Assembly (NCBI RefSeq): GCF_023370115.1
Contig: NZ_CP097160.1
Span: 1,612,001-1,676,000 of the forward strand
Origin: Gulosibacter sediminis
Lineage (GTDB): Bacteria; Actinomycetota; Actinomycetes; Actinomycetales; Microbacteriaceae
DNA: 64,000 nucleotides
Direction: 5' to 3'
Below, in pieces: positions 49,168 to 64,000 of this stretch. A program made the position numbers and the translations under genes. The stretch's first letter is position 1, and each line of letters starts with the position of its first letter. The notes under the pieces were generated by a model, which was not told the DNA's origin, did not search any database, and saw nothing but the letters and a program-made list of their open reading frames with translations.

Positions 49168-50070
49168 ATGACGATGCGCAAGTGGCACGAATTCCTGGAC
49201 CCAATCCTTCGGGTATTACGCGATGGCGGAGTTTTGACCCGACGTGAGCTGGTCGAGAAGGCAGCCGATTCTGTGGGGCTGACGCAGGAAGACCGCAGCA
49301 TCGTACTTGCAACTGGGATGCCCATGTTCGAGAACCGAATCGGCTGGGCTATGTCCCATTTGGTTATCGCCGGCGCGTTGGAACGTCCGCAACGGGCGCG
49401 GTATCAAATTACTGATTTGGGCCGGTCACTTCTCGCCAAGCATGCGGTCGTAACGAAAGACATCGTGACCGAAGAAACTGGCTACAACGGTCGGACTCCC
49501 TCGGCCACCGTCGTGACGAAGAACGCTTCGGAAAATGCCGAGCTCGATAGCTCAGTCGATCCAGAAGAGATTATCGACCAAGGTATCCAGCAAATCCGCG
49601 ATGAAGTTGCCGCTGACTTGCTGTCACGCCTGCAGTCCAAGTCGCCCACTTTCTTCGAGGAAGCGGTGGTAAAACTTCTGGTTGCCATGGGCTATGGCGG
49701 CACCGAGGGGCGCGCTGCCGTGACACGTCAATCAAATGACGGCGGCATCGACGGGGTCATCGACCAAGACACCCTCGGACTCAACCGTGTTTACGTGCAG
49801 GCCAAACGCTATTCCTCAGACAACTCGGTTCAGCGGCCAGAGATCCAGGCCTTCGTCGGCGCCCTGAGCGGTAAAGCTGACGGCGGTGTGTTCATTACTA
49901 CCGGCCGGTTTAGCCGAGGTGCGTTGGAATATGCGGACGCAGTGCCCACGCGAATCATCCTGATCGACGGGCAGCGGTTGACAAGCCTCATGATCCGGTT
50001 TGGTGTGGGTGTTCAGGTGAAGAGCACGGTCAATATCGTTCGTGTCGACGAGGACTTTTTCGAGCAATGA
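49168..50070 (+). CDS. mrr: Mrr-like type IV restriction endonuclease
   Basis: 300 residues. N-terminal winged-helix Mrr_N (about 1-95): WHEFLDPILRVLRDGGVLTR, RIGWAMSHLVIAGALERPQR, YQITDLGRSLL. The C-terminal PD-(D/E)xK nuclease (about 160-290) has FFEEAVVKLLVAMGYGG, then SNDGGIDGVIDQD and VYVQAKRY (catalytic Asp, Gln-x-Lys) and GVFITTGRFSRGALEYA. Mrr cleaves methylated DNA. Base composition is visibly less GC-rich than the surroundings, suggesting transfer. The 319-base stretch 48849-49167 before it holds no other gene; a TAATCT box at about 49124 may be its -10. Confidence 0.93.
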   Translation: MTMRKWHEFLDPILRVLRDGGVLTRRELVEKAADSVGLTQEDRSIVLATGMPMFENRIGWAMSHLVIAGALERPQRARYQITDLGRSLLAKHAVVTKDIVTEETGYNGRTPSATVVTKNASENAELDSSVDPEEIIDQGIQQIRDEVAADLLSRLQSKSPTFFEEAVVKLLVAMGYGGTEGRAAVTRQSNDGGIDGVIDQDTLGLNRVYVQAKRYSSDNSVQRPEIQAFVGALSGKADGGVFITTGRFSRGALEYADAVPTRIILIDGQRLTSLMIRFGVGVQVKSTVNIVRVDEDFFEQ

Positions 50071-50792: not shown

Positions 50793-53700
50793 TCACTGCT
50801 CCCGCCGCACCGGGCTCCGCAAATCAATCGCCGCAATCGCATCCCCATCAACGCCGCGACGTGCGAGCATCTCCACCATGTCGCCCTGCCGCGGCTGCCC
50901 CAGCGTCAAGCGATACAGCGTCAGCTCGTCTCGCAAACGCTCGTACTTCGCCGCATCCACGCTGAACGGATACGACAGCAATACCCGGTTCACCCGAGCC
51001 GGCCCCGGATAAATCCACCACGGAGAAAACTCGCCATGACCGTGGTCGTCGCGCTCGGCCGCGGCAAACGCCGCCGACCAGGGATGCGCATCCCCATCAC
51101 CCAACACGGACTCGCCATGCGTGGCGGCAATGTTCTTGCGAATCGCATGACCAGCGAACCGGTTCACCCGCCCCTCGCGCTGCTCGAAGTCGACCGGATT
51201 CGACGGCAAGTCCCAGTGCACGACCTCGTGACTCCACCAGTGAAAGTCGATGCCTTCTTGTCCCGCACTCGTCGAAGCGAGTACAAACGGCGCAAACGGG
51301 CTATTAAACGCTGCGCGCACCGACGCCATTCGCGCCGTTCCCGCATCCTCAGCACTCTGACCTCGACCGGCGCCGTAGCGAACCGCGAAGCGCGCCGACA
51401 TACGAATCTGCTCGCGGTCAATCGTGTTGTCGCGCGCCACGTAGTTGGCAGCGCGGAGCCCCAGCGCATCAGCAATCCGCTCCGCGACCTTGCGCAGCTC
51501 GTCCCCGTCAAGGCGCCCGTGTACTCCGGCACCCGATTCGAGCATGAGCTGAAATACGTACTCGTCGAGCACGGCCTGCAGATTGCCGTCAGCGCAGTAG
51601 TCGAGCACCTGCTGCCAATACGGTTTCTCTTCGCCGTAGAGCGTCGACAACAGTGCAATGGTGTCGGGACGATTGAACAGCGCTCGAATCGACGTGCCGA
51701 CGAGCCGTGCGGCAAGCCACAACTCCCTCGTCTCCACCTCATCCCCGCTGACCGTTTGCAGCGCGCGCCAGGCTATGTTGCCCGGCGCGTAAGCCGCCAG
51801 CCGCGGCAGCTCTGGATGCGCCAACACGTCGCCATGGTGCGCATCGGCAATGCGCATGGCCTCGAGCGCATGCGCATCAAGACCGCTCGGCGCATCCGCG
51901 TCATCGCCCAGCTGCACCCGTCGCATCTCGCGATCGCTGACGCCGCCCGGTCGAACGCCCGGGTATGCGAAGTACGCGGTCGAGGCCTGCTCCGTGGGGC
52001 GGCCGTCCAATAGCCCTTCACCCACGATAGACACCAGTTCATCGGCGTCGAGCGCGCGGTCCGACTGCGCCCGCACCGCGCGGTGATCCCCAACCTTCGC
52101 GAGCTCGGCATGCGGCCAAAACAACGGCAGCACCGACATCGCGGCCGGCCGACCATCTTCGAGCGTGCGATACGCGAGCCGCAACGACACCCGCTCATCG
52201 GCCGCAGCGTGATGGCTTGCGTACGCCAAGCGGTCGGCCTCGTGGCTCAGCAACGACGACACCGCCGTCGGCGTGGCACTCCACGACGAAAACAGCACGC
52301 ATTTTGTCAGCCCAGCGTCAACCGTCGAGTAGACGGCTCCTGGTTTGAGGTAGGGCATCGATGCCGGCATCCATAGCAGCTTCCACATGCCTGTCTCGAT
52401 TGTGCGCTCAGCCAGAGCGTGGAGCTTTCCGTTGCCAAAGCCGATCTCGCGCCGATCGTGCACATCATGCGAGCTGATCGATTGCGTTGCCGAGAGCAAC
52501 CGAGCGAGGGCATCGGCATCCATCTCGCGCGCATCCGCCAGGCGGGTTCCGATGCGATAGTTCTCCATGAAGTTCACGAAGTACGGAATCGACTTCCAGT
52601 ATTCGAGACTCAGCGGCGACTTCAACAGCTCGGCGAGCTCGTGCAACTGCACCGCGTCGAGGAGTTCGGCGGTGCTCGGCACCGGCACATCCGGTCGCAC
52701 GACGCGCACAAGGTCGTCGCTATTGCTCAACCGCGGCCGCTCGCTGCGGCTCATGAGCGGCAACAGCAACTGGCGGATGCGCGCGGCTTCGTCGGTGCCA
52801 GTCGCACCGCGCGTAATCGCATGCCGATACCGCTCGAGCGCCATCTGCACCTCGTCGACATCGCCGCCGCGCCGGCCGGCGAGAAAGCGCACGGTCGCGA
52901 GAAAGTCGCGATAGTGATCTTCGTCGTCGTCGCCGTGTGTGAAGGGTTTGTAGGGCGTTGCTGACAACAACAGGACCTTCGCGGCGTGGAACTCAAACAG
53001 TGCGTGCGCGAGTTCGGCAGCATCGCCGCCATTCGGGTCGAGCAGCTGCCGAAACCGTTGAAATTCGTCGAGGATGACGAGGTCGGGCTCGAGCGACTCG
53101 ATACTGGCTTTCGCCAGCTGCTGCCGCATCGCCGCAATGAGCCGAGCGGCGCGCGCCCGTTCGTGGTCGCCCAGCTTGCGCAGCCGCCGAGAATGCTCGC
53201 GCAGCTCAAGAAACTTCTGATCGATGCCGTGATTCTTGAGCAGCTCGCCGAACTTGGTGACGATATCGGGGTCAAGTTCGCCAGTTTCTGCCAGCAGCGG
53301 TCGAACATAATGGCTGTCAAACCGCTCGGGCGTTGCAACGCCGCCCTGGAGCAGCAGCCGAGTCACCCGACGATCGCTGACGCTGCGGTTGAACAGTTGA
53401 TCGAGAATTACGGTGAGCATCGCCCGCTCATTGGCCGCGCCTGTGCGCTGACCGCCCTCGGCGAAAGAGGTGCCCGGGGTAAACGAGACGAGATTCACCT
53501 TCTTGCCGCCGTGGCGCGCGGGAGCTTGCAGCCGGGCCGATTCCTTCGCGAGCATGGTCAGCCGCGAGGTGAAGCCGAGCTCCCGTTCACCGGTCACATT
53601 AAGTCGGCGAAGGTTCTGTGCCGCGAGATCTTGATTGCTGCAGACGTAGATGATGTCGATCCGGTCAACCGAGTCGTCGGTTTCGAGGTGCGCAATCGCC

Positions 53701-53876
53701 CGCGCAACAACTCCCTTGGCGACGACGCTCTTGCCAAGCCCCGTCTCGTCGGCAACGAGAAATCGACCGGAGCCGTCGGGTCGCTCGTAGAACTGCTCGA
53801 ACACGTGCTGCACGGTGTCGCGTTGAAAGCCCTTGAGCGAGGCGAGCACGGCGTCGACGTCAACGCTACTCGTCAT
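50793..53876 (-). CDS. SNF2/SF2-type helicase of defence-like cassette
   Basis: 1027 residues. Walker A VADETGLGKSVVAKG at about 40-54, motif II LVILDEFQRF near 268, motif III LLLSATPYKP near 300, motifs V-VI VLASTSAGQEGIDFHWW near 875 and QREGRVNRF near 900. Large helical insertions lie between the two ATPase lobes (about 340-800). The start at 53876 follows from MTSSVDVDAVLASLKGFQRD, with the Q-motif-like FQRD directly before the ATPase; an open frame continues upstream inside the preceding gene. It overlaps that gene by 11 bases. It is the last gene of the cassette. Comparable helicases drive DNA translocation in DISARM and Dpd systems. Confidence 0.88.
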   Translation of the reverse strand: MTSSVDVDAVLASLKGFQRDTVQHVFEQFYERPDGSGRFLVADETGLGKSVVAKGVVARAIAHLETDDSVDRIDIIYVCSNQDLAAQNLRRLNVTGERELGFTSRLTMLAKESARLQAPARHGGKKVNLVSFTPGTSFAEGGQRTGAANERAMLTVILDQLFNRSVSDRRVTRLLLQGGVATPERFDSHYVRPLLAETGELDPDIVTKFGELLKNHGIDQKFLELREHSRRLRKLGDHERARAARLIAAMRQQLAKASIESLEPDLVILDEFQRFRQLLDPNGGDAAELAHALFEFHAAKVLLLSATPYKPFTHGDDDEDHYRDFLATVRFLAGRRGGDVDEVQMALERYRHAITRGATGTDEAARIRQLLLPLMSRSERPRLSNSDDLVRVVRPDVPVPSTAELLDAVQLHELAELLKSPLSLEYWKSIPYFVNFMENYRIGTRLADAREMDADALARLLSATQSISSHDVHDRREIGFGNGKLHALAERTIETGMWKLLWMPASMPYLKPGAVYSTVDAGLTKCVLFSSWSATPTAVSSLLSHEADRLAYASHHAAADERVSLRLAYRTLEDGRPAAMSVLPLFWPHAELAKVGDHRAVRAQSDRALDADELVSIVGEGLLDGRPTEQASTAYFAYPGVRPGGVSDREMRRVQLGDDADAPSGLDAHALEAMRIADAHHGDVLAHPELPRLAAYAPGNIAWRALQTVSGDEVETRELWLAARLVGTSIRALFNRPDTIALLSTLYGEEKPYWQQVLDYCADGNLQAVLDEYVFQLMLESGAGVHGRLDGDELRKVAERIADALGLRAANYVARDNTIDREQIRMSARFAVRYGAGRGQSAEDAGTARMASVRAAFNSPFAPFVLASTSAGQEGIDFHWWSHEVVHWDLPSNPVDFEQREGRVNRFAGHAIRKNIAATHGESVLGDGDAHPWSAAFAAAERDDHGHGEFSPWWIYPGPARVNRVLLSYPFSVDAAKYERLRDELTLYRLTLGQPRQGDMVEMLARRGVDGDAIAAIDLRSPVRREQ

Positions 53877-55644
53877 CGCTCGCCCTCCCTCGAAGCTGCT
53901 GATGCGCATCCCATACCGCGTTCCAAAGTGGTTCGAACCCGACGGGCAACGCGGTCGATTCAGGTTCGCGCCGCAGAAAATTGATGATTCGTTGCGCATC
54001 GTCAAGCCCCTGCGCACCTCGCGCGAGCGCCCGCACCAGTGCCTCAAATAGCCCAGTGCTGCTGGCAGTGCCGCCACCAAATTCGCGCCACGCGCCGCTA
54101 CCCGCCGCGTCCGTCGCAGCCGCAAGCCCTGAAAGCTGCAGCAGCATCGTGAGCAGACGAATAAACGCGGCGGGGTCGGCGAGGTGCCGCGCGATGGTCG
54201 CCTCTTTGCGGTCGGCAATGTCGTCGAGCAGGCGCATGGGGATGATGGTCGACTGCTGCTCACCGGGCAACAACGGATGCGTGGCGCTTGCGACAAGGAA
54301 CGCGGTGATTTCGGTGAGGTCGAGCCCCTCGAATCGCGTGGCGTCGGCCTCGTGCTCACCGAGCCGAGTGGTGGTCGAGCCGAGGTCGGTAAGCAGCCGC
54401 CACTCGATTTCGATGCCGTTGGCGCGGGCCGGCCGCAGCGCATCCTCGAGCCCCTCTCCCACCCAGACCAGCTGCGTATGCGGCGCACCCGCGACCACGC
54501 GAGAAATCACCGCCAGCGTCGCGAGTCGGCGCAGCGCGGTGTCGACGGCATATCGCGCAGCTTCGTCGGCCGGTTCGGCCTCGCCGCCCGCAGTGTCGTA
54601 GAGCACCTTCAACTCACCGAGGGCGGCCATCGTCGTTGCGACGCCGTAGCTCGGGGTTGATGCGGCGAATTCGACCATGAACTCGACGTTGTCGTGCCAG
54701 GCCGCGCGAGTCGCGTTCGCGGAACCGAGCCAGATTCGGCTGCGACGCGACTGGTCGACGATGATCGCCTTGGCATGCAGTCCGGTGAGTTGGTGGTCGT
54801 CTTCGGCCTCAAGATTGGCGGCCTGGTCAAAGTCGTAGACATGCAGCTGCTCGTCAAAGCACTCCGGCGCGAGCCGATCGAGGCTCGTACCGCGCGACAA
54901 CAGGTGGGTTTCGCCGCGGATACTCGCCCGCAGCTCGCGCATCCGGTCGTCGGTGACGAACGGCGAGATCACGAGCGCACGGTTGCCGCTCACCTTCGGT
55001 GGCGTCGCCTCGCCGATGCCAAGTGTGTGGAACGCAAGCTCGCGGATGTCATCCGAGGTCTCCCACTCGACGCTGCCAAGCCGTTCGGCGAAGTCGAGAA
55101 TGCGCTGCTTGCGCGCAACGTCGAGCGGTTGGATGCAGAGCTCGGGCAGACCGCGCACGAGTCGCTGAATGGGTTCGTTCTGTTCTTGGCTACCGCCGTC
55201 GAGACTTGGGTTGCCGTCGAGTCGCACCACGATGTCCCAGCTGCGGTCGCCCGTGAGGTTTCGACTCGACGAGATGAGCCGGAAACGGTGTTCGCCCCCG
55301 CGCGCGAATTCGAGCATCCATACCTTTGGGTGGAAGATGCCACCGGGTGTCGCTACCGCGTGGATCGGCTCTTCGAGATAAGTAACGAGATCGCTGTGCT
55401 TGCCGAGAGTGATCTCGCCCGCCTGCGCGAAGATGTCGATCGCATCGGCAGCCTGGCTGATGGCGGCGAAGGTCGACACCGGGTCGTCGGCGTCGTGCAG
55501 CCGACTCGCGCTGAACGACAGTGGTACGGCGAGCGCCGAGATGAGGTCGAGGGTGAAGGTCGTGCCGATGGCCTGGACGAGCCGGAAGCCCGTCGGCGGC
55601 TGGAGCTGTTCGGTGAACGTCGCGCGCTGTTGCGGCTCAAGCAT
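53866..55644 (-). CDS. Phospholipase D-like nuclease/hydrolase
   Basis: 592 residues. Two HKD half-sites: FHPKVWMLEF near 104 with LISSSRNLTGD after it (Asp replaced by Glu), and a canonical GLHAKAIIVDQ near 290 followed by IWLGSANATRAAW. These PLD proteins act as nucleases or DNA-binding modules in several defence systems (DrmC, DpdK). The C-terminal 200 residues are helical and unrecognised. It overlaps both neighbours (8 and 11 bases), so all are translated from one mRNA. Confidence 0.9.
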   Translation of the reverse strand: MLEPQQRATFTEQLQPPTGFRLVQAIGTTFTLDLISALAVPLSFSASRLHDADDPVSTFAAISQAADAIDIFAQAGEITLGKHSDLVTYLEEPIHAVATPGGIFHPKVWMLEFARGGEHRFRLISSSRNLTGDRSWDIVVRLDGNPSLDGGSQEQNEPIQRLVRGLPELCIQPLDVARKQRILDFAERLGSVEWETSDDIRELAFHTLGIGEATPPKVSGNRALVISPFVTDDRMRELRASIRGETHLLSRGTSLDRLAPECFDEQLHVYDFDQAANLEAEDDHQLTGLHAKAIIVDQSRRSRIWLGSANATRAAWHDNVEFMVEFAASTPSYGVATTMAALGELKVLYDTAGGEAEPADEAARYAVDTALRRLATLAVISRVVAGAPHTQLVWVGEGLEDALRPARANGIEIEWRLLTDLGSTTTRLGEHEADATRFEGLDLTEITAFLVASATHPLLPGEQQSTIIPMRLLDDIADRKEATIARHLADPAAFIRLLTMLLQLSGLAAATDAAGSGAWREFGGGTASSTGLFEALVRALARGAQGLDDAQRIINFLRREPESTALPVGFEPLWNAVWDAHQQLRGRASDDE

Positions 55645-56851
55645 CGGTGACCTCGATCGCTTGGTCGAGCCCGTTGTGAATGTCGGCCAGAATTCTGCGG
55701 ACGTATGCCCAGCGATAGCCGATGCGCCCCGATTGCGAGCCGCCGCCCCACATACTCAAGCGTTTGCGGCTGGCGTCGATGCGATACAGCGTGGGCTTAT
55801 TGGTGCGTTCTCGACGACGAACGAGTCGGCGGGCGTCGTCATGCTCGGCCAGGCTGGCGAGCGGATGTTCGCGGGTGAGCTCGAGCCAGTTGCGCACAAA
55901 CGCGACGGTCCCGGGTTTGATCGGCATGCCCCGAGTGAGCTCGAGCCGGGCAAAGAAGTCCTCTATCGGCCAGGCAAAGCGGTCGACCTCACTATCGAGC
56001 TGGCGCGCCCATTCGGCGAAGCGGCCGCGATAGTCCTCGACCGGGTTCGCCACCCGGTCGAGCCCAGCGGCCTCGTAGCTTTCGGCGATGAGCAGATTGT
56101 AGAGCAGCTGCACGCCGTGAATTACTGCCGAGAACGTCTGCGCGTGGTTGAGGAGCGCCTTCGCATCGCCCGTCGCGGTCTGCGCTGCGTTGGTTTTCCA
56201 GGGAAACCGGCTGTCGTCGTCGGGGCGAACGTGCAGAAAGTGCGCGAGCAGCGTGCCGTCGGTTTCCATGACGATGCGGTCACGCAGCCAGGATGCTTCA
56301 TGGTGCGTGAGCGCGAATCCTCCGGGCACTTGGCCGGGGAAGCCCTGCGGTGCGGGCGGAATCTCGGCCGACCAGGCTCGGTGCTGCGAAGTCATTTCCT
56401 CGTCGCCGGCGATGGTGTGCTGTGGCGAATTCGCGGTGTCGCTGCGGCTTGCGGCAGCGTCACTGCGAATGCCGTAGCGGCCGAGTGCGCTCCAGTAGAT
56501 CGATGACGGCAGCATCTTGACCGCGCCGCCGGCTTGGCCGCCAATGAGGCCGGCGCTATCGCGGCTGGCTGCAAGCGCCGGTATGAGCTTGCGCTCGAGG
56601 CGTTTCGCCTGCGCCGCGGGGTCGGTTTTGTCAGCGGATGCGAGTTGATAGATCCACGGCACGAACAGCAGGTACTTCGCGCGGGTGTGCAGGGTCGAGC
56701 TGCCAGGAAATAGCGCGTCGCCGAGGGCATCGCGGATTTGCCCGAAGCCGAGCTCGTCACGGCTGTCGCGGTCGGTGAACAGGCTCACGATGTCGCGCAT
56801 CCGCTGCTGCTCTGCGGCGGATGCGTCAAGCCACGCGATGAGTTCTGGCAT
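55637..56851 (-). CDS. DUF6361 family protein
   Basis: 404 residues. The opening ELIAWLDASAAEQQRMRDIV, DELGFGQIRDALGDALFPGS and TRAKYLLFVPWIYQLASADK are the DUF6361 hallmark. A middle block reads SIYWSALGRYGIRS, later WLRDRIVMETDGTLLAHFLH. No catalytic motif is known for the family, which is repeatedly seen beside helicase/PLD genes. The ATG at 56851 follows GAAGGA and overlaps the UvrD-like gene by 26 bases; a start at 56893 is less likely. Confidence 0.88.
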   Translation of the reverse strand: MPELIAWLDASAAEQQRMRDIVSLFTDRDSRDELGFGQIRDALGDALFPGSSTLHTRAKYLLFVPWIYQLASADKTDPAAQAKRLERKLIPALAASRDSAGLIGGQAGGAVKMLPSSIYWSALGRYGIRSDAAASRSDTANSPQHTIAGDEEMTSQHRAWSAEIPPAPQGFPGQVPGGFALTHHEASWLRDRIVMETDGTLLAHFLHVRPDDDSRFPWKTNAAQTATGDAKALLNHAQTFSAVIHGVQLLYNLLIAESYEAAGLDRVANPVEDYRGRFAEWARQLDSEVDRFAWPIEDFFARLELTRGMPIKPGTVAFVRNWLELTREHPLASLAEHDDARRLVRRRERTNKPTLYRIDASRKRLSMWGGGSQSGRIGYRWAYVRRILADIHNGLDQAIEVTDA

Positions 56852-59261
56852 CGCTACTGTTCCTTCGAACTCCCAGCACTCCCGAAACCCCACCTTCGAA
56901 CGTCACCACAAGCTCATCGCGCGCACGCGTCGCGGCGACATAGAGCAGCGCGGCCTCGTGCATCCGATGTTCCTGCGCGATCGCCTCGGTCGCGTCGCGG
57001 CGCAGCGGCACGGGGAACCGACCTTCAGAGATGTCGTAGAGCAGCACCCGCGAGAACTCGTGGCCCTTCGACTGGTGCATCGTCATGGTCGTCAGGGCAC
57101 CAGCCTGCGGCTCGTCAGCTGGCGTGACGAATCGCGCTGCGATGCCCTGGTCGCCAAGCATCGTCGCGATGTTCTGCGCATCCCGCCGCGAGCGCGCGAG
57201 CACCGCGACGGTCGACGGCGCGACGCCCTCGTCGATCCATTCGCGCACGACGCGCAGCACCGTATCCACCTGCGCGCCAGCCGCCTCGACCAGCCGCGGC
57301 TCGGGGCCGCGGCGCGCCGAGAGATACCCCGACACGTCTTCGCGCGAGCCCTCGCCCGTCACCCATTCTTCGCCCTCGAGCGCCCGCAGCGCGAAGTCGA
57401 GGGTCTCTTGCGTCGTGCGGTAATTGAGCTTGAGCCGCCGCGAGCGCCCCCGCAGATCGATGCCGACGCGAGCCATGCGCACGGGCCGCCCGTAGATACG
57501 CTGGTGCGCGTCCTCGGCAATAAACAGATCGTTCGGACCGGGCACCGCGAGCGCCCGCAGAAACTGCCACTGCGGCGCGATCAGGTCTTGCCCCTCATCG
57601 ACAAGCACGTGGTCGGCCATGCCCCCGAGACCTTCAAGCGTCGCCGCCGCGATGGCCGCGAGTTCGGCGAACGCCACCTGCCGGTCGATCTTCTGGCTCA
57701 GGCGAAACTGCTCAATCGCGTCCCACACCGCCACGCGCTGCCGGCGGCCGAGCCGCGTGCCGCTGCCGAGCCGCGACGCCCGCAGGTACTCCTCGCGCGA
57801 GGCGATGCGCTCGCGCAATACAATGTCGAGGTACTCCTCTTCGAGAAACGCCGCCGAGGCGAGCCGCTCCCCGAGCTCCGATTCGAAGCGCCGCGCGGTC
57901 GCCTCCCACTGCTCGGTGCTCGCCCCGCTCGGCCGGCGCCCATCGGCCGACGAGCCGAGCACCCGCTCGCTCGCCGCATTGAACTCGCGCGGCCAGCGCC
58001 GCCGCACCTCGGCAACGAGCTGGTCGACGCCCGCGACATAGATGCCGGCGTCGCCGAGCTCAGCGGCAAGCGGCAGCTTCGGGTCGAGCCGCTGCAGGTC
58101 GCGGCTCAGCATCGTCGCGAGCGTGCGCGTGTAGGTCGTAAGCACGATGCGCGCCTGCGGGTTGTCGAGCGCGAGCCGCCGCGCGCGGTGCAGCAGGATC
58201 ACCGTCTTGCCGGTGCCGGCGCCACCCGTGAGACGGAACGTGCCGGCGTAGTTGCGCTCGACGTAGTGCTGCTGATCGGGGTGCAAGAAGACCGTCCACG
58301 CGCCGAAGTCCTCGGCCTCGATCACGCGCCGCAGCTCATCCTGACCGTCGACATACTTGAACTGGCGGCGGGCGGCCGGATGCTCGAAGCCACGCAGGAT
58401 GCGCTCGTCTTCGTTCTCGAAAGGCTCGGGTTGCGCGACTGGCGTGTCTGCCGCAACATCAGCCGCCCCAACCGTGTCGCCTGGCTCGTCGGCAGCAGTA
58501 TCATCGACGGGCTCGGATGCGTCGGAGGTCGCGGCGGCAGCTACGGCGTCCCCGGCCTCGACCTCAACATCCTCCCCAACAACCTCGAGCGCCTCGGGGT
58601 CGGCCATCTCACCGTGTATCTCGGCAAGAATCCCGTCGATCGGCTTGCCCTCGAGCAGCGCGATCACGGCGAGCTCCTGCCAGCCGTTGGTAAACCGGTC
58701 GACGAAGGCGGTGAGCGCCGCGTCGTCGGGCGCTGCCATGAGTTCTTCGGCGTCGGCGACGTTGAAGCCGAGCTCCTCAACGAGCCCCCGAAGCGTGTAG
58801 CCCTTGCGCTCGAGCACGGGCGTCACCACGAGCCCCTGCGCGGTCGCGGCGGCCGCCTTCTCTTGCGCATCGGCGATCTGCCGGGCGCGTTCGACGACCT
58901 CGTCGACGCCGCTCGCAACCGCCTCGGCGTCGACCTCGAGAATCTCGTTCACCCCGTTGACGGGGTTCACACGCAGCACGCGCGTGCGCGCCACCTCGAT
59001 CGCCTCGTCATGCGGCCACACGCCGGTGTACACGTAGGTGACCTCGCCGCGCGGCGGGTCGAGCCGAAACAGAACGGCGCGCCAGAACTCGTCGACCCGG
59101 CCGGTGCGGGCACGCGGGTCGGCGGCGTGCGTCATCGGCTCGATGTGCAGGCCCGGCGTCGTGTCGTCGTCGTGCAGCTTGCTAAGAAAGCTGAACACCT
59201 TCGACTTGAGGTTGCCGTCGACCGAGTTCGACTTCTGCTGTGCCCAGATCACCTGTGGCAT
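56826..59261 (-). CDS. UvrD/Rep-like SF1 helicase with N-terminal extension
   Basis: 811 residues. The first 310 residues are an unrecognised region: a small beta-rich part resembling RelE/ParE-like folds (VDEFWRAVLFRLDPPRGE, VYTGVWPHDEAIEVAR), then an acidic Ala/Asp/Glu linker (about 235-285). The helicase core: Walker A LTGGAGTGKTVILLHR near 345, motif II VLVDEGQDL near 555, LNYRTTQETLDFA near 610, MTMHQSKGHEFSRVLL near 725 and LLYVAATRARDEL near 770. The ATG overlaps the stop of the DUF1998 helicase by one base (TAATG). Confidence 0.9.
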   Translation of the reverse strand: MPQVIWAQQKSNSVDGNLKSKVFSFLSKLHDDDTTPGLHIEPMTHAADPRARTGRVDEFWRAVLFRLDPPRGEVTYVYTGVWPHDEAIEVARTRVLRVNPVNGVNEILEVDAEAVASGVDEVVERARQIADAQEKAAAATAQGLVVTPVLERKGYTLRGLVEELGFNVADAEELMAAPDDAALTAFVDRFTNGWQELAVIALLEGKPIDGILAEIHGEMADPEALEVVGEDVEVEAGDAVAAAATSDASEPVDDTAADEPGDTVGAADVAADTPVAQPEPFENEDERILRGFEHPAARRQFKYVDGQDELRRVIEAEDFGAWTVFLHPDQQHYVERNYAGTFRLTGGAGTGKTVILLHRARRLALDNPQARIVLTTYTRTLATMLSRDLQRLDPKLPLAAELGDAGIYVAGVDQLVAEVRRRWPREFNAASERVLGSSADGRRPSGASTEQWEATARRFESELGERLASAAFLEEEYLDIVLRERIASREEYLRASRLGSGTRLGRRQRVAVWDAIEQFRLSQKIDRQVAFAELAAIAAATLEGLGGMADHVLVDEGQDLIAPQWQFLRALAVPGPNDLFIAEDAHQRIYGRPVRMARVGIDLRGRSRRLKLNYRTTQETLDFALRALEGEEWVTGEGSREDVSGYLSARRGPEPRLVEAAGAQVDTVLRVVREWIDEGVAPSTVAVLARSRRDAQNIATMLGDQGIAARFVTPADEPQAGALTTMTMHQSKGHEFSRVLLYDISEGRFPVPLRRDATEAIAQEHRMHEAALLYVAATRARDELVVTFEGGVSGVLGVRRNSSDARTHRVA

Positions 59262-62200
59262 TACGCTCCCCCTCGTTCGGTGAAGTAGTTGATGATGCCC
59301 GCCGCGTCGCGCGCCTCGAAGCCGGCGTCACGCACGAGCGCGAGCTCCGACTCGCCGAGCCCGGGGGCGAAGGCGAGCCGCGCATCTGGCCAGCTCGCGA
59401 GCACGAGCACGCCCGTCTCGAGCTCTTCGCCGACCTCGGGCGCGGGCACGACGCCCGCCTGCTGCAGCGGCGCGAGCGCCTCGACCTCGTCGGGCAGCGC
59501 GTACTCGAGCGCGAGCTGCCACTGCGAGCCGAAGGCGTAGTCGGGCGTTCCACCCGGCACGGCGGGCGTTGCAGCGACGTCAGAAGCCCCGGCAAGCAGC
59601 GAGCGCGTCGACACGACGGTGTTCGCGGCATCGTGCCCGAGCACATTCGACCAGTGCAGGTATTCGCGCCACTGCGCCCGGAAGCCTGCATCGGCGAGCG
59701 CATCGGCGCCGTCGTCGAGCACGAGCGCACTCGTAAACGTCGGTCCGCTGCCGCCCGGCTGGTACTGCGTCACGGCGACAAAGCTGCCGTCACGCCGCTG
59801 TGCCGCGGTCGGAGCGCCAGGGGGAAGCGGTGCGTCGAGGCATTCGAGCGCCGCCGCCGCCACGCTGCGCTCGCCGAGCTCGGCGGTCTGGCCGGTGCCG
59901 ATCATCAGCATGGGCAGGGCGGCCAGGATTCGCTGCCAGGCCGACATTGCGAGCTGCGGGTCGCGCATCCAGTCGAGGATGCGCGACATCGGGTTCGCGA
60001 AGATGCGCTCGATGTCGCCGGCGTTAAGCCCGAGCTGCGTGCCGAGCCCGTCGTAGGTGCGGCTCTCGCGGGCCCAGGAGGGCAGCTCAGCGGGAACCCC
60101 ACGAAGGAACTCGTCGACGTCTTCCCACGTCAGCGAAATCACGGTGGTGCCGGTCTCGCGAATCGCCGCACGCTTCGCGGCATCGTCGGCGAGGCGGTCG
60201 ATCGCCTGCGTCGCATGAAACTGGTAGCCGTCGAGGAACACGGCGAGCCGCCCGTCGGCCGCATTACTCGACTCGAAGAGAAAGTCGGGGCGAGCGCCGG
60301 CGAGGTGCTGCTCGGGCTGCACCGTGATGAGCGAGCGCTGCGGCATCGTCACGGTGAGCGAGTTGCCGAAGGTGGTGGGCTGCTGGGTCACGGTCGCGGC
60401 CATCACCTCGAGCCCGCCGAGCAGCGCCGTGCGGAACTGCTGCTCGAGGGCCGAGCCCGAGTCGCGCTTGCCCGGGTCTTCGGCCTTCACCTCCCAGTGG
60501 TGCCGCGGCGCCGATTCGACATCGTCGCGCGGCACGCCGAGTAGTTGCCGCAGCACGCGCACGCCGGTCGAGCGCCACACGTTCTTCGTGGCGCGGCCGG
60601 GCGCGAATGGCAGCAGGCAGCGGTGGCACGCCGCCCGCTGCTCGTGCTGGCACACGCATGCCTCGAGCACCTCGAGGGCCGAGACGAGGATGCGCTCGAG
60701 CCCGTCGGGTGTCGCGTGGTCGGCAAGATAGCCGGTGCCGCCGGGCACGCGGTCGTGCACGAGCAGGCCCGTGAAGGTTGCGGTGCCAGCGCCCGCGTGC
60801 GAGACGTCGCGCACGAGCGCGATGTCGAGGTGTTGCGGGTCGCCGCCGATCACCTCGCGCAGCCCGAGCCGCAGCGCCGCCGCGAGCGAGGGCAACACGA
60901 ACTCGTCGGTCTGCACCGCGTCGGGCAGGCGCAGCAGCAGCCCCTGCGTCTCGAGGGTGCGGGCGAGCGCCACCTGCACCGGGTCTTCATCGCGCAGCTT
61001 GCGGTGCGAACACCACGGCTGATGCTCGCGCCACGAGTTGTCGCCGGGCTCGGTGTCGCGGTGCCCGCATTCGCGGCAGACGCGAAACAGCGGCGCCGAG
61101 GTCGTGACCCCGCCGAGCAGCCGCTCGGCGCTGCCCGAGCCGTCGCGTTGCGTGCCGAGGTTCAGGGTGCGCAGCGTCACGGCGCGCGCGTACTTCACGC
61201 CGAAGCCAGTCTTCGCGTCGAACCACTGCGTGAGCACGGCGTCGGGGTCGATGTCGGCGAGGTCGAGCATCGTGAAGTGGTGCTGCACGCGTTCGTCGCT
61301 CGCGTCAGAAATGAGGTGCTCGTCGCGGCGCACCTGCGCCGACACTTTCTCGAGCTCAATCGCCAAAAGCTGCTGCCCCGTGTCGGCGAACGCGGCCTCG
61401 CCGCAGCGCGGGCAGGGGCCAAGCTCCGCGACCTGCTCGAGCGTGAGGTCGTGCACGTGCCCGCAGGTCGGGCAGCACACCCAGGTGTGCACGGCCTCGC
61501 CGTTCGCGCCGGTCTCGACGCTGTCGACTTCGATCGCGAGGCCCTGCGCGTAGAACGTCGCGCCGGGTGCGAAGTCGCGGATCGCGTTCGAGGCGTCGCG
61601 GGTGTAGCGGAACGACTCCTGCGCGAACACCTGCGTATCGGCGTCGATCCAGCTCACGGCGACGTCGAGGTCGACGGCGTCGTCGAGCAGCGTGTAGTTC
61701 GGCAGCACGCCGACGCGCTCGAGCGCCGCCACCCAGAACTCGTTGTCAAGTTCGGCGCGCGTGCGCCGCAGCATGCGATGGATCGACACGGCAGCGCGCA
61801 GCTCCGAAGCATCCTCTTCGGTCGCGGCGGGCGCCTCCGCCCGTTTCTCCAACTCCTCAATGAGCCGCGAGGTCTCGGTAATGCGCCGGTCGAGCCGGTC
61901 GACCTCGAGCGCAAACGCGCGGGATGCGGCGGCCAGGTCGGCGGCGACCGGCACCACGCCGTCATCCCCCGCCCGAAGCCACGCGCGTAGCTCGGCCACG
62001 CTGTCGTCACGCAGCAGCGAGCGCCGCGCGCCGTCAGCATCCACCGTATCGAAGCACGCGAGATAGCGCTCGAGCAGCTCGCCGCCGAACTCCTGAATCT
62101 CGTCGATCACGTGCCCGAGCGGGGTGTCGGCGTCGGCCGAGGCGAGCACGTCGATCGCCCGCCGTGTGCCCTGCTGACCGCCCCGCGCGGCGATCTCGTC

Positions 62201-64000
62201 GAAGATCGTCGCGAGAAACTGTCGCTTGAGAATCTCGACCGCGTCGAGGTACGTCGCCGGCGCGGGCACCTCGCCGTTGATGAGCTCGAGCGGCTCCTGG
62301 TACCAGGCGAGCTGATCGTGCCGCCCCGGTACGAACGCGAGCGCGAGCGCGCTCCCACTGAGGCGACCGGCGCGGCCCACGCGCTGCACGTAGTTCGCGA
62401 CGGTTCGCGGCAGCGAGGCGAGGACGACGGTCGAGAGGTCGCCGATGTCGATACCCATCTCGAGCGTCGGCGTCGCCACGAGCACGTTCGGCGCATCGGG
62501 CTGCGTCTCGGCACCCTTGAACGCCTGCTCGTAGGCGAGGCGCACGTCGTCGGGCAGCAGGCTCGTGTGCTCGCGGGCGACCACGCGGCGCATGTTCGAC
62601 TCGGCGTAGAGCGTGCGGTAGTAGTTGTCGGGCTTCAGCGCGTGGCGGCGCAGCATGCCGTCGTGGCACTGCAGCACCGGGCATCGAGCCCCGTCGAGCT
62701 GCGCCACGGTCGTGGGGCTGCCCGCGGTGAGCGCGCCGCAGCTGTCGCACTCGAGCATCGTGTTGCCGGCGGTGAGGTCGGCGTCGGATGCGGGGCGCAC
62801 GAGAATGCGCTCGGGCGCGAGCGCGAACGCCGGGCTCGTGCCACCGCGCTCCACGTGGTGGGTTTCGACGAGCTCGCCCTCCGCGAGCGCGTCGAACAGC
62901 CGTCGCACGAGCCGCCCGCTCGCCTCCTTCGGCACATCGAGGATGCGCGAGGTCCAGCGCGCGTACCAGCCGGTCGGCGAGGTGAGGTCGTCGAGCAGGT
63001 ACTCGGCCTTGCCGTGCTTCGGGTTCGCGCCGACGCGGGCGAAGGCGGGCGCTGAGCGACCCTTCGGGAACGCCGGCATGCCCTCGCGGTGCGGCCGCCC
63101 ACCCCAGACGCGGTACCGCAGCCCGCTGTCTTTGATGTAGGCCTTGAGCCACGGGTGCATGATGCCGCCGCGCGAACGCAGCTGCTCGAGCACGCCTCGC
63201 GCCCAGGCGACGAGCGTCGGCCCGGCGATCTCGCCGTCGCTGCCGAGCTCGGCATTGAATTCAAACCCGCTCACGGCCTCGCGGGCGAGGCGTTCGAGCA
63301 GCTCGGGGGTGCCGGTGTCGACCTCGGCCGTCACCGAACCGGTCTTCTCGAGCGTGCGCGCGAACGACGACTGCAGCCCGAATTCGAGGCTGAGGTCGAA
63401 GGCCATGCGCTTTGCGACGCGGCGGCGCGTGGGCAGGTCGACGTTGTTCGCGTCGGCGGTCTGCCAGAAGCTGCGAAAGCTCTCGCGGTCGACGATGTCG
63501 GGCCCGAGCAGCCGGTAGCGGTCGGCCTGAGTCGTCGCGCGCGCGAGCATCTCGGTCGCAAGTTCGGCGAGGGTGCGCGTCTGCGTGCCGAGCGCCCGAC
63601 GAATCGCGTTGCGCAGCCCGAAGGTGTGCGCGCGCGACTGCACGAAGCCGGCGCGGTGCGCGGCGTCTTGCACGCTGTCGGTAAAGACGAGCTCTTTCTT
63701 CTCGGCGTCGTCGAGCTCGCCGTCGCCGAACAGCGAGGTGGTCACCACCGAGAGCAGCGTGGCGACGGCGGCGCCCATGAAGCGAATGCCGTCGCGCTGC
63801 CCGCACGCCGGGCACACGTCGTTGCGGGTGTCGCGCTCGGCGTCTTCGCCGTCGAGCCAGCGAACGGGGAGAATGTTCGTGTCGACGTCGCCGCCCTCGA
63901 GCCCCGGATGCGTCGCGAACACGCTGCGCTCGCGCACGTCCCACCACCCGAAGCCGGGCACGGGCTCGTTCTTCTCGTAGTGCTGGTCGGCCTCGCGGTC
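59261..64000 (-). CDS. DUF1998 helicase fused to Vsr-like nuclease (5' end outside window)
   Basis: 1579 residues visible; the N-terminus with Walker A and DExH motifs lies beyond 64000. Helicase C half: NVLVATPTLEMGIDIGDLST, then VLASLPRTVANYVQRVGRAG (about 515-560 of the visible part). Several zinc-binding pairs: CPACGQ, CDSCGAL, CCPTCGHVHDL with CPRCGEA, CRECGHRD. The DUF1998 (MZB) site is CVCQHEQRAACHRC near 1120. A C-terminal domain (about 1230-1310) has ARPDFLFES, LAVFLDGYQFHA and TTVISLTWEDV, like Vsr/DUF559 endonucleases. The combination fits a DNA-targeting helicase-nuclease. It is the first visible gene of the cassette. Confidence 0.9.
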   Translation of the reverse strand, partial: DREADQHYEKNEPVPGFGWWDVRERSVFATHPGLEGGDVDTNILPVRWLDGEDAERDTRNDVCPACGQRDGIRFMGAAVATLLSVVTTSLFGDGELDDAEKKELVFTDSVQDAAHRAGFVQSRAHTFGLRNAIRRALGTQTRTLAELATEMLARATTQADRYRLLGPDIVDRESFRSFWQTADANNVDLPTRRRVAKRMAFDLSLEFGLQSSFARTLEKTGSVTAEVDTGTPELLERLAREAVSGFEFNAELGSDGEIAGPTLVAWARGVLEQLRSRGGIMHPWLKAYIKDSGLRYRVWGGRPHREGMPAFPKGRSAPAFARVGANPKHGKAEYLLDDLTSPTGWYARWTSRILDVPKEASGRLVRRLFDALAEGELVETHHVERGGTSPAFALAPERILVRPASDADLTAGNTMLECDSCGALTAGSPTTVAQLDGARCPVLQCHDGMLRRHALKPDNYYRTLYAESNMRRVVAREHTSLLPDDVRLAYEQAFKGAETQPDAPNVLVATPTLEMGIDIGDLSTVVLASLPRTVANYVQRVGRAGRLSGSALALAFVPGRHDQLAWYQEPLELINGEVPAPATYLDAVEILKRQFLATIFDEIAARGGQQGTRRAIDVLASADADTPLGHVIDEIQEFGGELLERYLACFDTVDADGARRSLLRDDSVAELRAWLRAGDDGVVPVAADLAAASRAFALEVDRLDRRITETSRLIEELEKRAEAPAATEEDASELRAAVSIHRMLRRTRAELDNEFWVAALERVGVLPNYTLLDDAVDLDVAVSWIDADTQVFAQESFRYTRDASNAIRDFAPGATFYAQGLAIEVDSVETGANGEAVHTWVCCPTCGHVHDLTLEQVAELGPCPRCGEAAFADTGQQLLAIELEKVSAQVRRDEHLISDASDERVQHHFTMLDLADIDPDAVLTQWFDAKTGFGVKYARAVTLRTLNLGTQRDGSGSAERLLGGVTTSAPLFRVCRECGHRDTEPGDNSWREHQPWCSHRKLRDEDPVQVALARTLETQGLLLRLPDAVQTDEFVLPSLAAALRLGLREVIGGDPQHLDIALVRDVSHAGAGTATFTGLLVHDRVPGGTGYLADHATPDGLERILVSALEVLEACVCQHEQRAACHRCLLPFAPGRATKNVWRSTGVRVLRQLLGVPRDDVESAPRHHWEVKAEDPGKRDSGSALEQQFRTALLGGLEVMAATVTQQPTTFGNSLTVTMPQRSLITVQPEQHLAGARPDFLFESSNAADGRLAVFLDGYQFHATQAIDRLADDAAKRAAIRETGTTVISLTWEDVDEFLRGVPAELPSWARESRTYDGLGTQLGLNAGDIERIFANPMSRILDWMRDPQLAMSAWQRILAALPMLMIGTGQTAELGERSVAAAALECLDAPLPPGAPTAAQRRDGSFVAVTQYQPGGSGPTFTSALVLDDGADALADAGFRAQWREYLHWSNVLGHDAANTVVSTRSLLAGASDVAATPAVPGGTPDYAFGSQWQLALEYALPDEVEALAPLQQAGVVPAPEVGEELETGVLVLASWPDARLAFAPGLGESELALVRDAGFEARDAAGIINYFTERGGA

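Follow-up and report, generated by a model that had tools for sequence, protein, structure and literature searches.

A seven-gene Gulosibacter sediminis locus that probably joins an ARMADA type II antiphage unit to a ZacABC cassette

The window analysed here, 64,000 nucleotides of Gulosibacter sediminis (bases 1612001–1676000 of a 2.75 Mb single-contig genome), cuts through a packed run of minus-strand genes that comprises seven genes, not five, once the 20 kb to the right of position 64000 is added. This run is probably a seven-gene operon made of two antiphage units, ARMADA type II (armA, armB, armC, armD) and ZacABC (zacA, zacB, zacC), that were fused by recombination; its transcription as one operon, the activities of its products, the coupling of its genes and the cooperation of the two units are predictions from sequence and are worded as such below. 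Its components are known or catalogued; what looks new is their combination and the point where they meet, at which a catalogued three-gene cassette, undescribed in the literature searched, overlaps the end of a recently reported defence operon in a joint that can still be read.

Positions to the right of the window are given as extended coordinates, that is, 64000 plus the position in the 20 kb flank (L005). Two genes lie outside the window, armA for a BrxHII/DrmD-like SNF2 helicase of 976 amino acids (L005:6409–9339, extended 70409–73339) and armB for a PglX/type IIG-like methyltransferase of 1569 amino acids (L005:1698–6407, extended 65698–70407). They are followed on the same minus strand by armC (59261 to extended 65698; about 2145 amino acids), encoding a YprA-family (DUF1998/MZB) helicase with a putative C-terminal Vsr-like PD-(D/E)xK nuclease, armD (56826–59261; 811 amino acids), encoding a RelE-like N-terminal domain and a GajB/UvrD-like helicase, zacA (55637–56851; 404 amino acids), encoding a DUF6361 protein predicted to be all-helical, zacB (53866–55644; 592 amino acids), encoding a PLD-superfamily nuclease with two HKD-type motifs, and zacC (50793–53876; 1027 amino acids from the ATG at 53876), encoding an SF2/SNF2-like helicase. 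The longest open reading frame of the last gene begins at 54488; in that frame the match to the ZacC model begins at residue 209, with which a zacC start at 53876 (residue 205) agrees. The junctions are a 1-base gap (armA/armB), a 1-base overlap in TAGTG (armB/armC), TAATG at 59261 (armC/armD), and overlaps of 26 bases (zacA ATG at 56851, armD stop at 56826), 8 bases (zacB with zacA) and 11 bases (zacC with zacB). An initial annotation of the window alone had described the five genes inside it with the TAATG and the three longer overlaps, all of which were confirmed, and had suggested that a methyltransferase could lie past 64000, where armB was found on extension.

The joint between the units was located by blastn against a genome of the same genus (G003), in which similarity to armD ended at 56872 and similarity to zacA began at 56839, placing the switch point within approximately 56840–56871 on the minus strand; the zacA ATG (56849–56851) lies inside this interval. 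ArmD of the window extends 14 residues beyond ...VSGVLG, with its stop inside zacA, and three same-genus ArmD copies (two in G003, one in G005) end 0–2 residues after the equivalent ...TGLL(G). The final codons of armD seem to derive from the zacA side, and the simplest reading, taken from the same-genus copies, is that armD lost its own stop. Since zacA overlaps armD by 26 bases and its own leader is minimal or absent, it is probably translationally coupled to armD. In G003 (L090:3237–8000), the last 401 bp of armD is duplicated at 86% identity approximately 2 kb downstream of the first copy, so the armD 3′ end may be prone to rearrangement. Small genes, one of them weakly HEPN-like, lie between the two copies.

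The first four genes were assigned to ARMADA type II by gene order and domains; this assignment is part of the two-unit explanation and is likely to the same degree. A 2025 preprint by Bell et al. (PMC12458937) describes ARMADA type II as a DISARM-related antiphage system in which the genes follow a strict order: ArmA is a BrxHII-like helicase, ArmB a PglX-like methyltransferase, ArmC a YprA helicase bearing a Vsr-type nuclease, and ArmD a GajB-like helicase whose N-terminal domain resembles RelE. In E. coli the system is reported to give direct, non-abortive phage protection that requires all four genes, and it is active from the four cloned genes, without ZacABC. The same order of BrxHII-like, PglX-like, YprA-like and GajB-like genes was found at the locus. 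ArmA is related to DrmD/BrxHII (DrmD model, 331.5 bits, below the cut-off of 610) and has intact GLGKT and DESH motifs. ArmB matched the PADLOC models REase_MTase_IIG (1401 bits) and DrmMI (171 bits) and Pfam Eco57I (42.8 bits), and carries VGNPPW at residue 960, corresponding to the NPPW motif of ARMADA II ArmB. ArmC contains DEAD (71 bits), Helicase_C (45 bits) and MZB (DUF1998, PF09369; 40.3 bits) domains, all fused in one protein, together with GTGSGKT and DEFH motifs and seven CxxC motifs, putatively zinc-binding; its best PADLOC model was DruE (286 bits). In an alignment of 12 sequences, its C-terminal domain has invariant DF, DGxxxH and DxxKR positions, and a nearly invariant E and P. 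ArmD matched UvrD_C at 65.8 bits. Sequence profiles alone found no match for its RelE-like domain; an AlphaFold model of residues 1–290, built from 17 sequences (mean predicted local distance difference test score (pLDDT) 77, about 91 over residues 1–100, predicted TM-score (pTM) 0.44), resembled YoeB/YafQ/RelE-family toxins in its N-terminal part (Foldseek probability 1.00, best E 2e-3, TMt 0.5–0.7).

Matches to ArmD were counted as full when they scored above 390 bits and included the N-terminal domain. ArmB, ArmC and ArmD occurred in order, with part of ArmA visible, in 13 of 16 other ArmD neighbourhoods from Microbacteriaceae; in the remaining three, ArmB is broken and inverted (L094), a contig end cuts the neighbourhood (L096) or no ArmC match is present (L100). 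In the last of these (genome G420), which has a full ArmD, two genes (clusters c55 and c56) occupy the expected place of ArmC; relatives of this pair come after a ZacA fragment in Luteimicrobium (L040). FRG-domain genes come after ArmD in L091 and L096, and lie some kilobases from ZacABC in L022.

The remaining three genes correspond to the PADLOC-DB families PDLC03828–PDLC03830, matched over nearly the full length by ZacA (409 bits), ZacB (492 bits) and ZacC (1028 bits). ZacA also belongs to Pfam DUF6361 (182.6 bits, cut-off 25), and its predicted structure, from 29 sequences, is all-helical (pLDDT 85, pTM 0.84). Invariant residues of ZacA include P49, G50 and W66. No PDB sequence match to ZacA was found at E values up to 10, and its placement as a relative of a solved fold was rejected, with a best Foldseek E of 1.1 and probabilities of at most 0.10 among the matches listed (50 of 108). 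ZacB scored 25.6 bits against PLDc_2, slightly below the cut-off of 27, and its HKD-type motifs, HPK and GLHAK/GSxN, are invariant in all 26 aligned homologues; a ZacB profile matched PDB 7clg (E 1e-5, listed as ‘Putative helicase’), which we take to be SauUSI. ZacC matched Helicase_C at 26.6 bits and keeps the SF2 motifs GLGKS, DEFQ, SATP and QREGRVNR. No paper on ZacABC, on DUF6361 or on the origin of the name Zac was found among the papers listed in a search without most preprints and subscription papers.

Relatives of the cassette were collected from a GTDB genome scan, which gave 32 ZacABC loci, and from plasmids, among which 43 records had a ZacA match (33 spanning at least 80% of ZacA) and 17 of the 43 were taken for neighbourhood study. 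The plasmid carriers include an archaeon and a Bacteroidota species. After removing duplicates (L140–L142) and not counting L011, L013 and L102, which are the same as L028, L031 and L014, 57 distinct loci were obtained; L034, L040, L041 and L135, in which not all three genes were evident, were excluded, leaving 53, among which L018, L037 and L044 (less than 3 kb of upstream DNA) were retained. All 53, each with tblastn matches to the three genes, have the order ZacA, ZacB, ZacC on one strand; reading frames are interrupted in L020, L031, L033, L036, L109 and L111. In viral contigs, two stretches fitted a ZacABC search pattern and neither was a relative, and a phage collection contained one partial ZacA relative, in an unannotated record and with 31% of the query covered.

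The ARMADA and ZacABC genes are mostly found separately. Among 398 Microbacteriaceae genomes, 13 had a ZacA match (one partial), 17 had a full ArmD and 3 had both. In one of these, G003, ZacA and ArmD are 1.2 Mb apart; in Pseudoclavibacter terrae (L014), ZacABC lies approximately 3 kb from ArmA, divergently oriented and with three genes between. No ZacABC was found after ArmD in the 16 other ArmD neighbourhoods, in which approximately 3–5 kb downstream was examined (less than 1 kb in L096). ArmD directly before ZacA was seen in this window only, among the loci examined, 3 of the 53 having too little upstream DNA to judge.

These results divide the claims of the initial annotation. Its domain calls (DUF1998 helicase, UvrD-like helicase, DUF6361, PLD protein, helicase) agree with the Pfam matches and with the ZacB motifs, and its view of a helicase–nuclease defence locus related to DISARM is supported. 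Its central proposal, one new defence system with a five-gene composition of its own, fails because the window edge had cut a larger, seven-gene operon with two recognisable units: the first two of the five genes are armC and armD, and the other three are the ZacABC of PADLOC. The initial annotation had named a match to a catalogued system as its refutation; the five genes are catalogued in two parts, and no single catalogued system holds all five.

In PglX-type systems, a methyltransferase marks host DNA. By analogy, ArmB would mark the host DNA here, and the helicases ArmA and ArmC, the latter with its Vsr-like nuclease, would act on unmarked phage DNA; the RelE–UvrD protein ArmD would also be needed, as it reportedly is in E. 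coli (PMC12458937). Within the second unit, ZacC is a predicted ATP-driven DNA translocase, ZacB is a predicted PLD nuclease that would do the cutting, and ZacA, modelled as all-helical, may be an adaptor or sensor that links the other components or senses a signal; from these parts, ZacABC is predicted to be a translocating, ATP-dependent nuclease directed at foreign DNA, which it would degrade. Where it stands behind a system that cuts, unwinds or marks DNA, the products of that system may be its substrates. Recombination at the armD 3′ end would have joined ZacABC to ARMADA, probably removing the armD stop and leaving zacA, through the overlap, probably coupled to armD in translation.

Several observations weigh against this explanation or parts of it. 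The tails of more distant ArmD proteins vary, reaching up to approximately 10 residues beyond the point where the same-genus copies end. The Vsr-like nuclease that the initial annotation had placed on the DUF1998 helicase keeps its conserved positions in the 12 aligned sequences, and its database matches are weak: MTES_1575 was matched below threshold (20.2 bits, cut-off 38.2) by one homologue and not by the ArmC of the window, and the PDB match, 3r3p, had an E of 0.39. No activity of ZacABC was reported in the literature searched. ZacA and ArmD co-occur in Microbacteriaceae only modestly more often than chance would give (3 genomes, with 0.56 expected; hypergeometric P = 0.014), and one genus supplies two of these three.

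The surroundings of ZacABC elsewhere bear on how the two units are related. At least one of the partners probed was present in the examined flanks of 27 of the 53 loci. AddAB-like pairs of a PD-(D/E)xK nuclease and a UvrD helicase accompany 12 loci (same strand at 9) and type I restriction–modification (R-M) genes 8 (same strand at 6); YprA-family or ARMADA genes occur at 4 (L014, L021, L122, L134), and a single locus each has a IIG enzyme, a PglX-like methyltransferase or a type IV restriction-like gene. When 5 kb to each side is counted, 21 of the 53 ZacABC loci have type I R-M, AddAB-like or IIG genes, versus 0 of 16 stretches around ArmC–ArmD, a control that covers these stretches only and is small and mostly downstream. 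AddB-like proteins (400-residue query) are rare, occurring in 3 of the 398 Microbacteriaceae genomes, and were present at three Microbacteriaceae ZacABC loci (L016, L022, L039). On plasmid pHALHY01 of Haliscomenobacter hydrossis (L119), the annotation lists a methyltransferase, a specificity subunit, DUF6361, PLD, helicase, a small hypothetical protein and type I subunit R in that order, which puts ZacABC inside a type I R-M operon, after the gene for the specificity subunit and before that for the restriction subunit. L134 (97–16359) holds a co-directional series of genes for a 1028-residue unknown protein, a DruE-like helicase (614 bits) and an AAA ATPase, and then ZacABC. ZacABC adjoins an integrase gene on a Cronobacter plasmid and an HNH endonuclease gene on a Halomarina plasmid, with no other annotated defence partner on either.

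From these neighbourhoods we tentatively propose that ZacABC is a portable nuclease ‘back-end’ for unrelated DNA-targeting defences. Its substrates would be DNA ends or intermediates that a partner produces, coupling would run through ZacA, and here ARMADA II would have captured it, probably making it dependent on armD through the overlap. In Actinomycetota, Alphaproteobacteria and Bacteroidota, the cassette follows, flanks or sits inside type I R-M, Druantia-like, ARMADA, IIG and AddAB-like sets, and a general add-on would explain why the same DUF6361–PLD–helicase triplet stands near several different restriction-type systems. Against this proposal, 26 of the 53 loci lack every partner probed, the contrast with the control is weak for the downstream side alone (6 of 53 versus 0 of 16), two of the three Microbacteriaceae genomes with an AddB-like protein have no ZacA match, and the ZacABC loci on rhizobial plasmids are related to one another. 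A five-gene order on one strand, PD-(D/E)xK nuclease, UvrD helicase, DUF6361, PLD and helicase, recurs on alphaproteobacterial plasmids (L108, L109, L113–L117) and in Microbacterium (L039); this AddAB-like pair with ZacABC may fit the idea of a dedicated five-gene system better than the set in the window does.

Two rival explanations concern the relation between the units and are compatible with their identification as ARMADA II and ZacABC. Chance placement of two independent systems in a defence island, with a functionally meaningless overlap, has a substantial but less than even likelihood: defence genes cluster, two further defence-like genes lie close to the run (described below), and about half of the ZacABC loci are without a probed partner, whereas the enrichment of R-M, AddAB-like and IIG genes around ZacABC over the small, mostly downstream control speaks against chance. 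It is rather unlikely that all seven genes form one functional whole, with ZacABC as a substitute for, or an addition to, the ARMADA nuclease arm. The single strand, the junctions of a few bases throughout, which leave no space for a separate zacA promoter, the adjacent though divergent pair in Pseudoclavibacter terrae, and the occurrence of ZacABC co-directional with or inside other defence operons all favour integration; however, 10 of the 13 genomes with ZacA lack a full ArmD and 14 of the 17 with ArmD lack ZacA, the same-strand join recurs at no other examined locus, and ARMADA II reportedly functions in E. coli without ZacABC (PMC12458937).

The other two rivals would change the identity of the locus. 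A DISARM or Dpd variant, suggested by the joint presence of an SNF2 helicase, a PglX-like methyltransferase, a DUF1998 helicase and a PLD protein, is very improbable: helicase and MZB domains are fused in ArmC, ZacB matched DrmC at 22.8 bits (cut-off 133) over 55 residues, and the DrmD and DpdE models scored below their cut-offs while the near full-length matches were those to ZacB and ZacC; for Dpd, no search of the genome for DpdA was made. Equally improbable is a DNA repair locus of the MrfAB or AddAB kind with no role in defence; the YprA and UvrD families do contain repair helicases, and AddAB-like pairs do accompany ZacABC at 12 loci, but ZacA is sparse (13 of 398 genomes), it is carried by plasmids (the 33 records with at least 80% of ZacA), restriction genes lie near, and antiphage data exist for ARMADA II elsewhere (PMC12458937). 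A fusion of ARMADA type II and ZacABC is the preferred explanation.

On the plus strand just past the end of zacC, and convergent with it, lies a type IV methyl-directed restriction-like gene (49168–50070; PADLOC mREase_IV, 248.5 bits). Relatives of this gene immediately precede ZacA, on the same strand in L025 and on the opposite strand in L016. Beyond armA, the minus strand carries a gene for a CBS-domain protein (L005:10385–11281, extended 74385–75281; NCBIfam NF053863 ‘DS11_antiphage’, 148.9 bits, cut-off 260); a relative (L014:8959–10008) is immediately upstream of ZacA in the ARMADA–ZacABC locus of Pseudoclavibacter terrae. No tRNA genes that could mark an island border were found in the window or in the two 20-kb flanks.

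Among known systems, ARMADA type II (PMC12458937) shares with the locus the ordered set of ArmA (BrxHII-like), ArmB (PglX-like, NPPW), ArmC (YprA, MZB, and here a putative Vsr-like end) and ArmD (RelE-like and GajB/UvrD-like); the locus differs in having three extra genes, ZacABC, joined by the 26-base overlap to the armD 3′ end, and in being actinobacterial, outside the tested E. coli loci. The ZacABC of PADLOC shares the A–B–C order with overlaps and near full-length matches for all three proteins, and differs in that here it stands directly behind ArmD on the same strand, as in no other examined locus. DISARM class 1 has in common with the locus an SNF2 helicase, a PglX-like methyltransferase, a YprA-family helicase and a PLD protein nearby; in contrast, the DrmA- and DrmB-type parts are fused here in ArmC, the PLD protein is ZacB and not DrmC, and ArmD and DUF6361 are extra. 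Membership of DISARM was rejected on the fused ArmC in place of separate DrmA and DrmB, the DrmC score and the other model scores below cut-offs. Dpd models gave 160.7 bits for DpdE (cut-off 500) and 98 bits for ArmC with DpdJ, in a genome not searched for DpdA. Druantia is approached through DruE, the best PADLOC model of ArmC, and differs in that the putative ArmC nuclease is Vsr-like and that methyltransferase and SNF2 genes are present here; the DruE-like protein adjoining ZacABC in L134 is closer. Druantia III was rejected, with no DruH among the matches of the scanned locus proteins (other genes of the genome were not scanned) and no PLD domain on ArmC. Restriction enzymes of the SauUSI type, finally, likewise couple a PLD nuclease to an SF2 helicase, whereas here nuclease and helicase are on separate chains and accompanied by ZacA, and no reader of modified bases was recognised.

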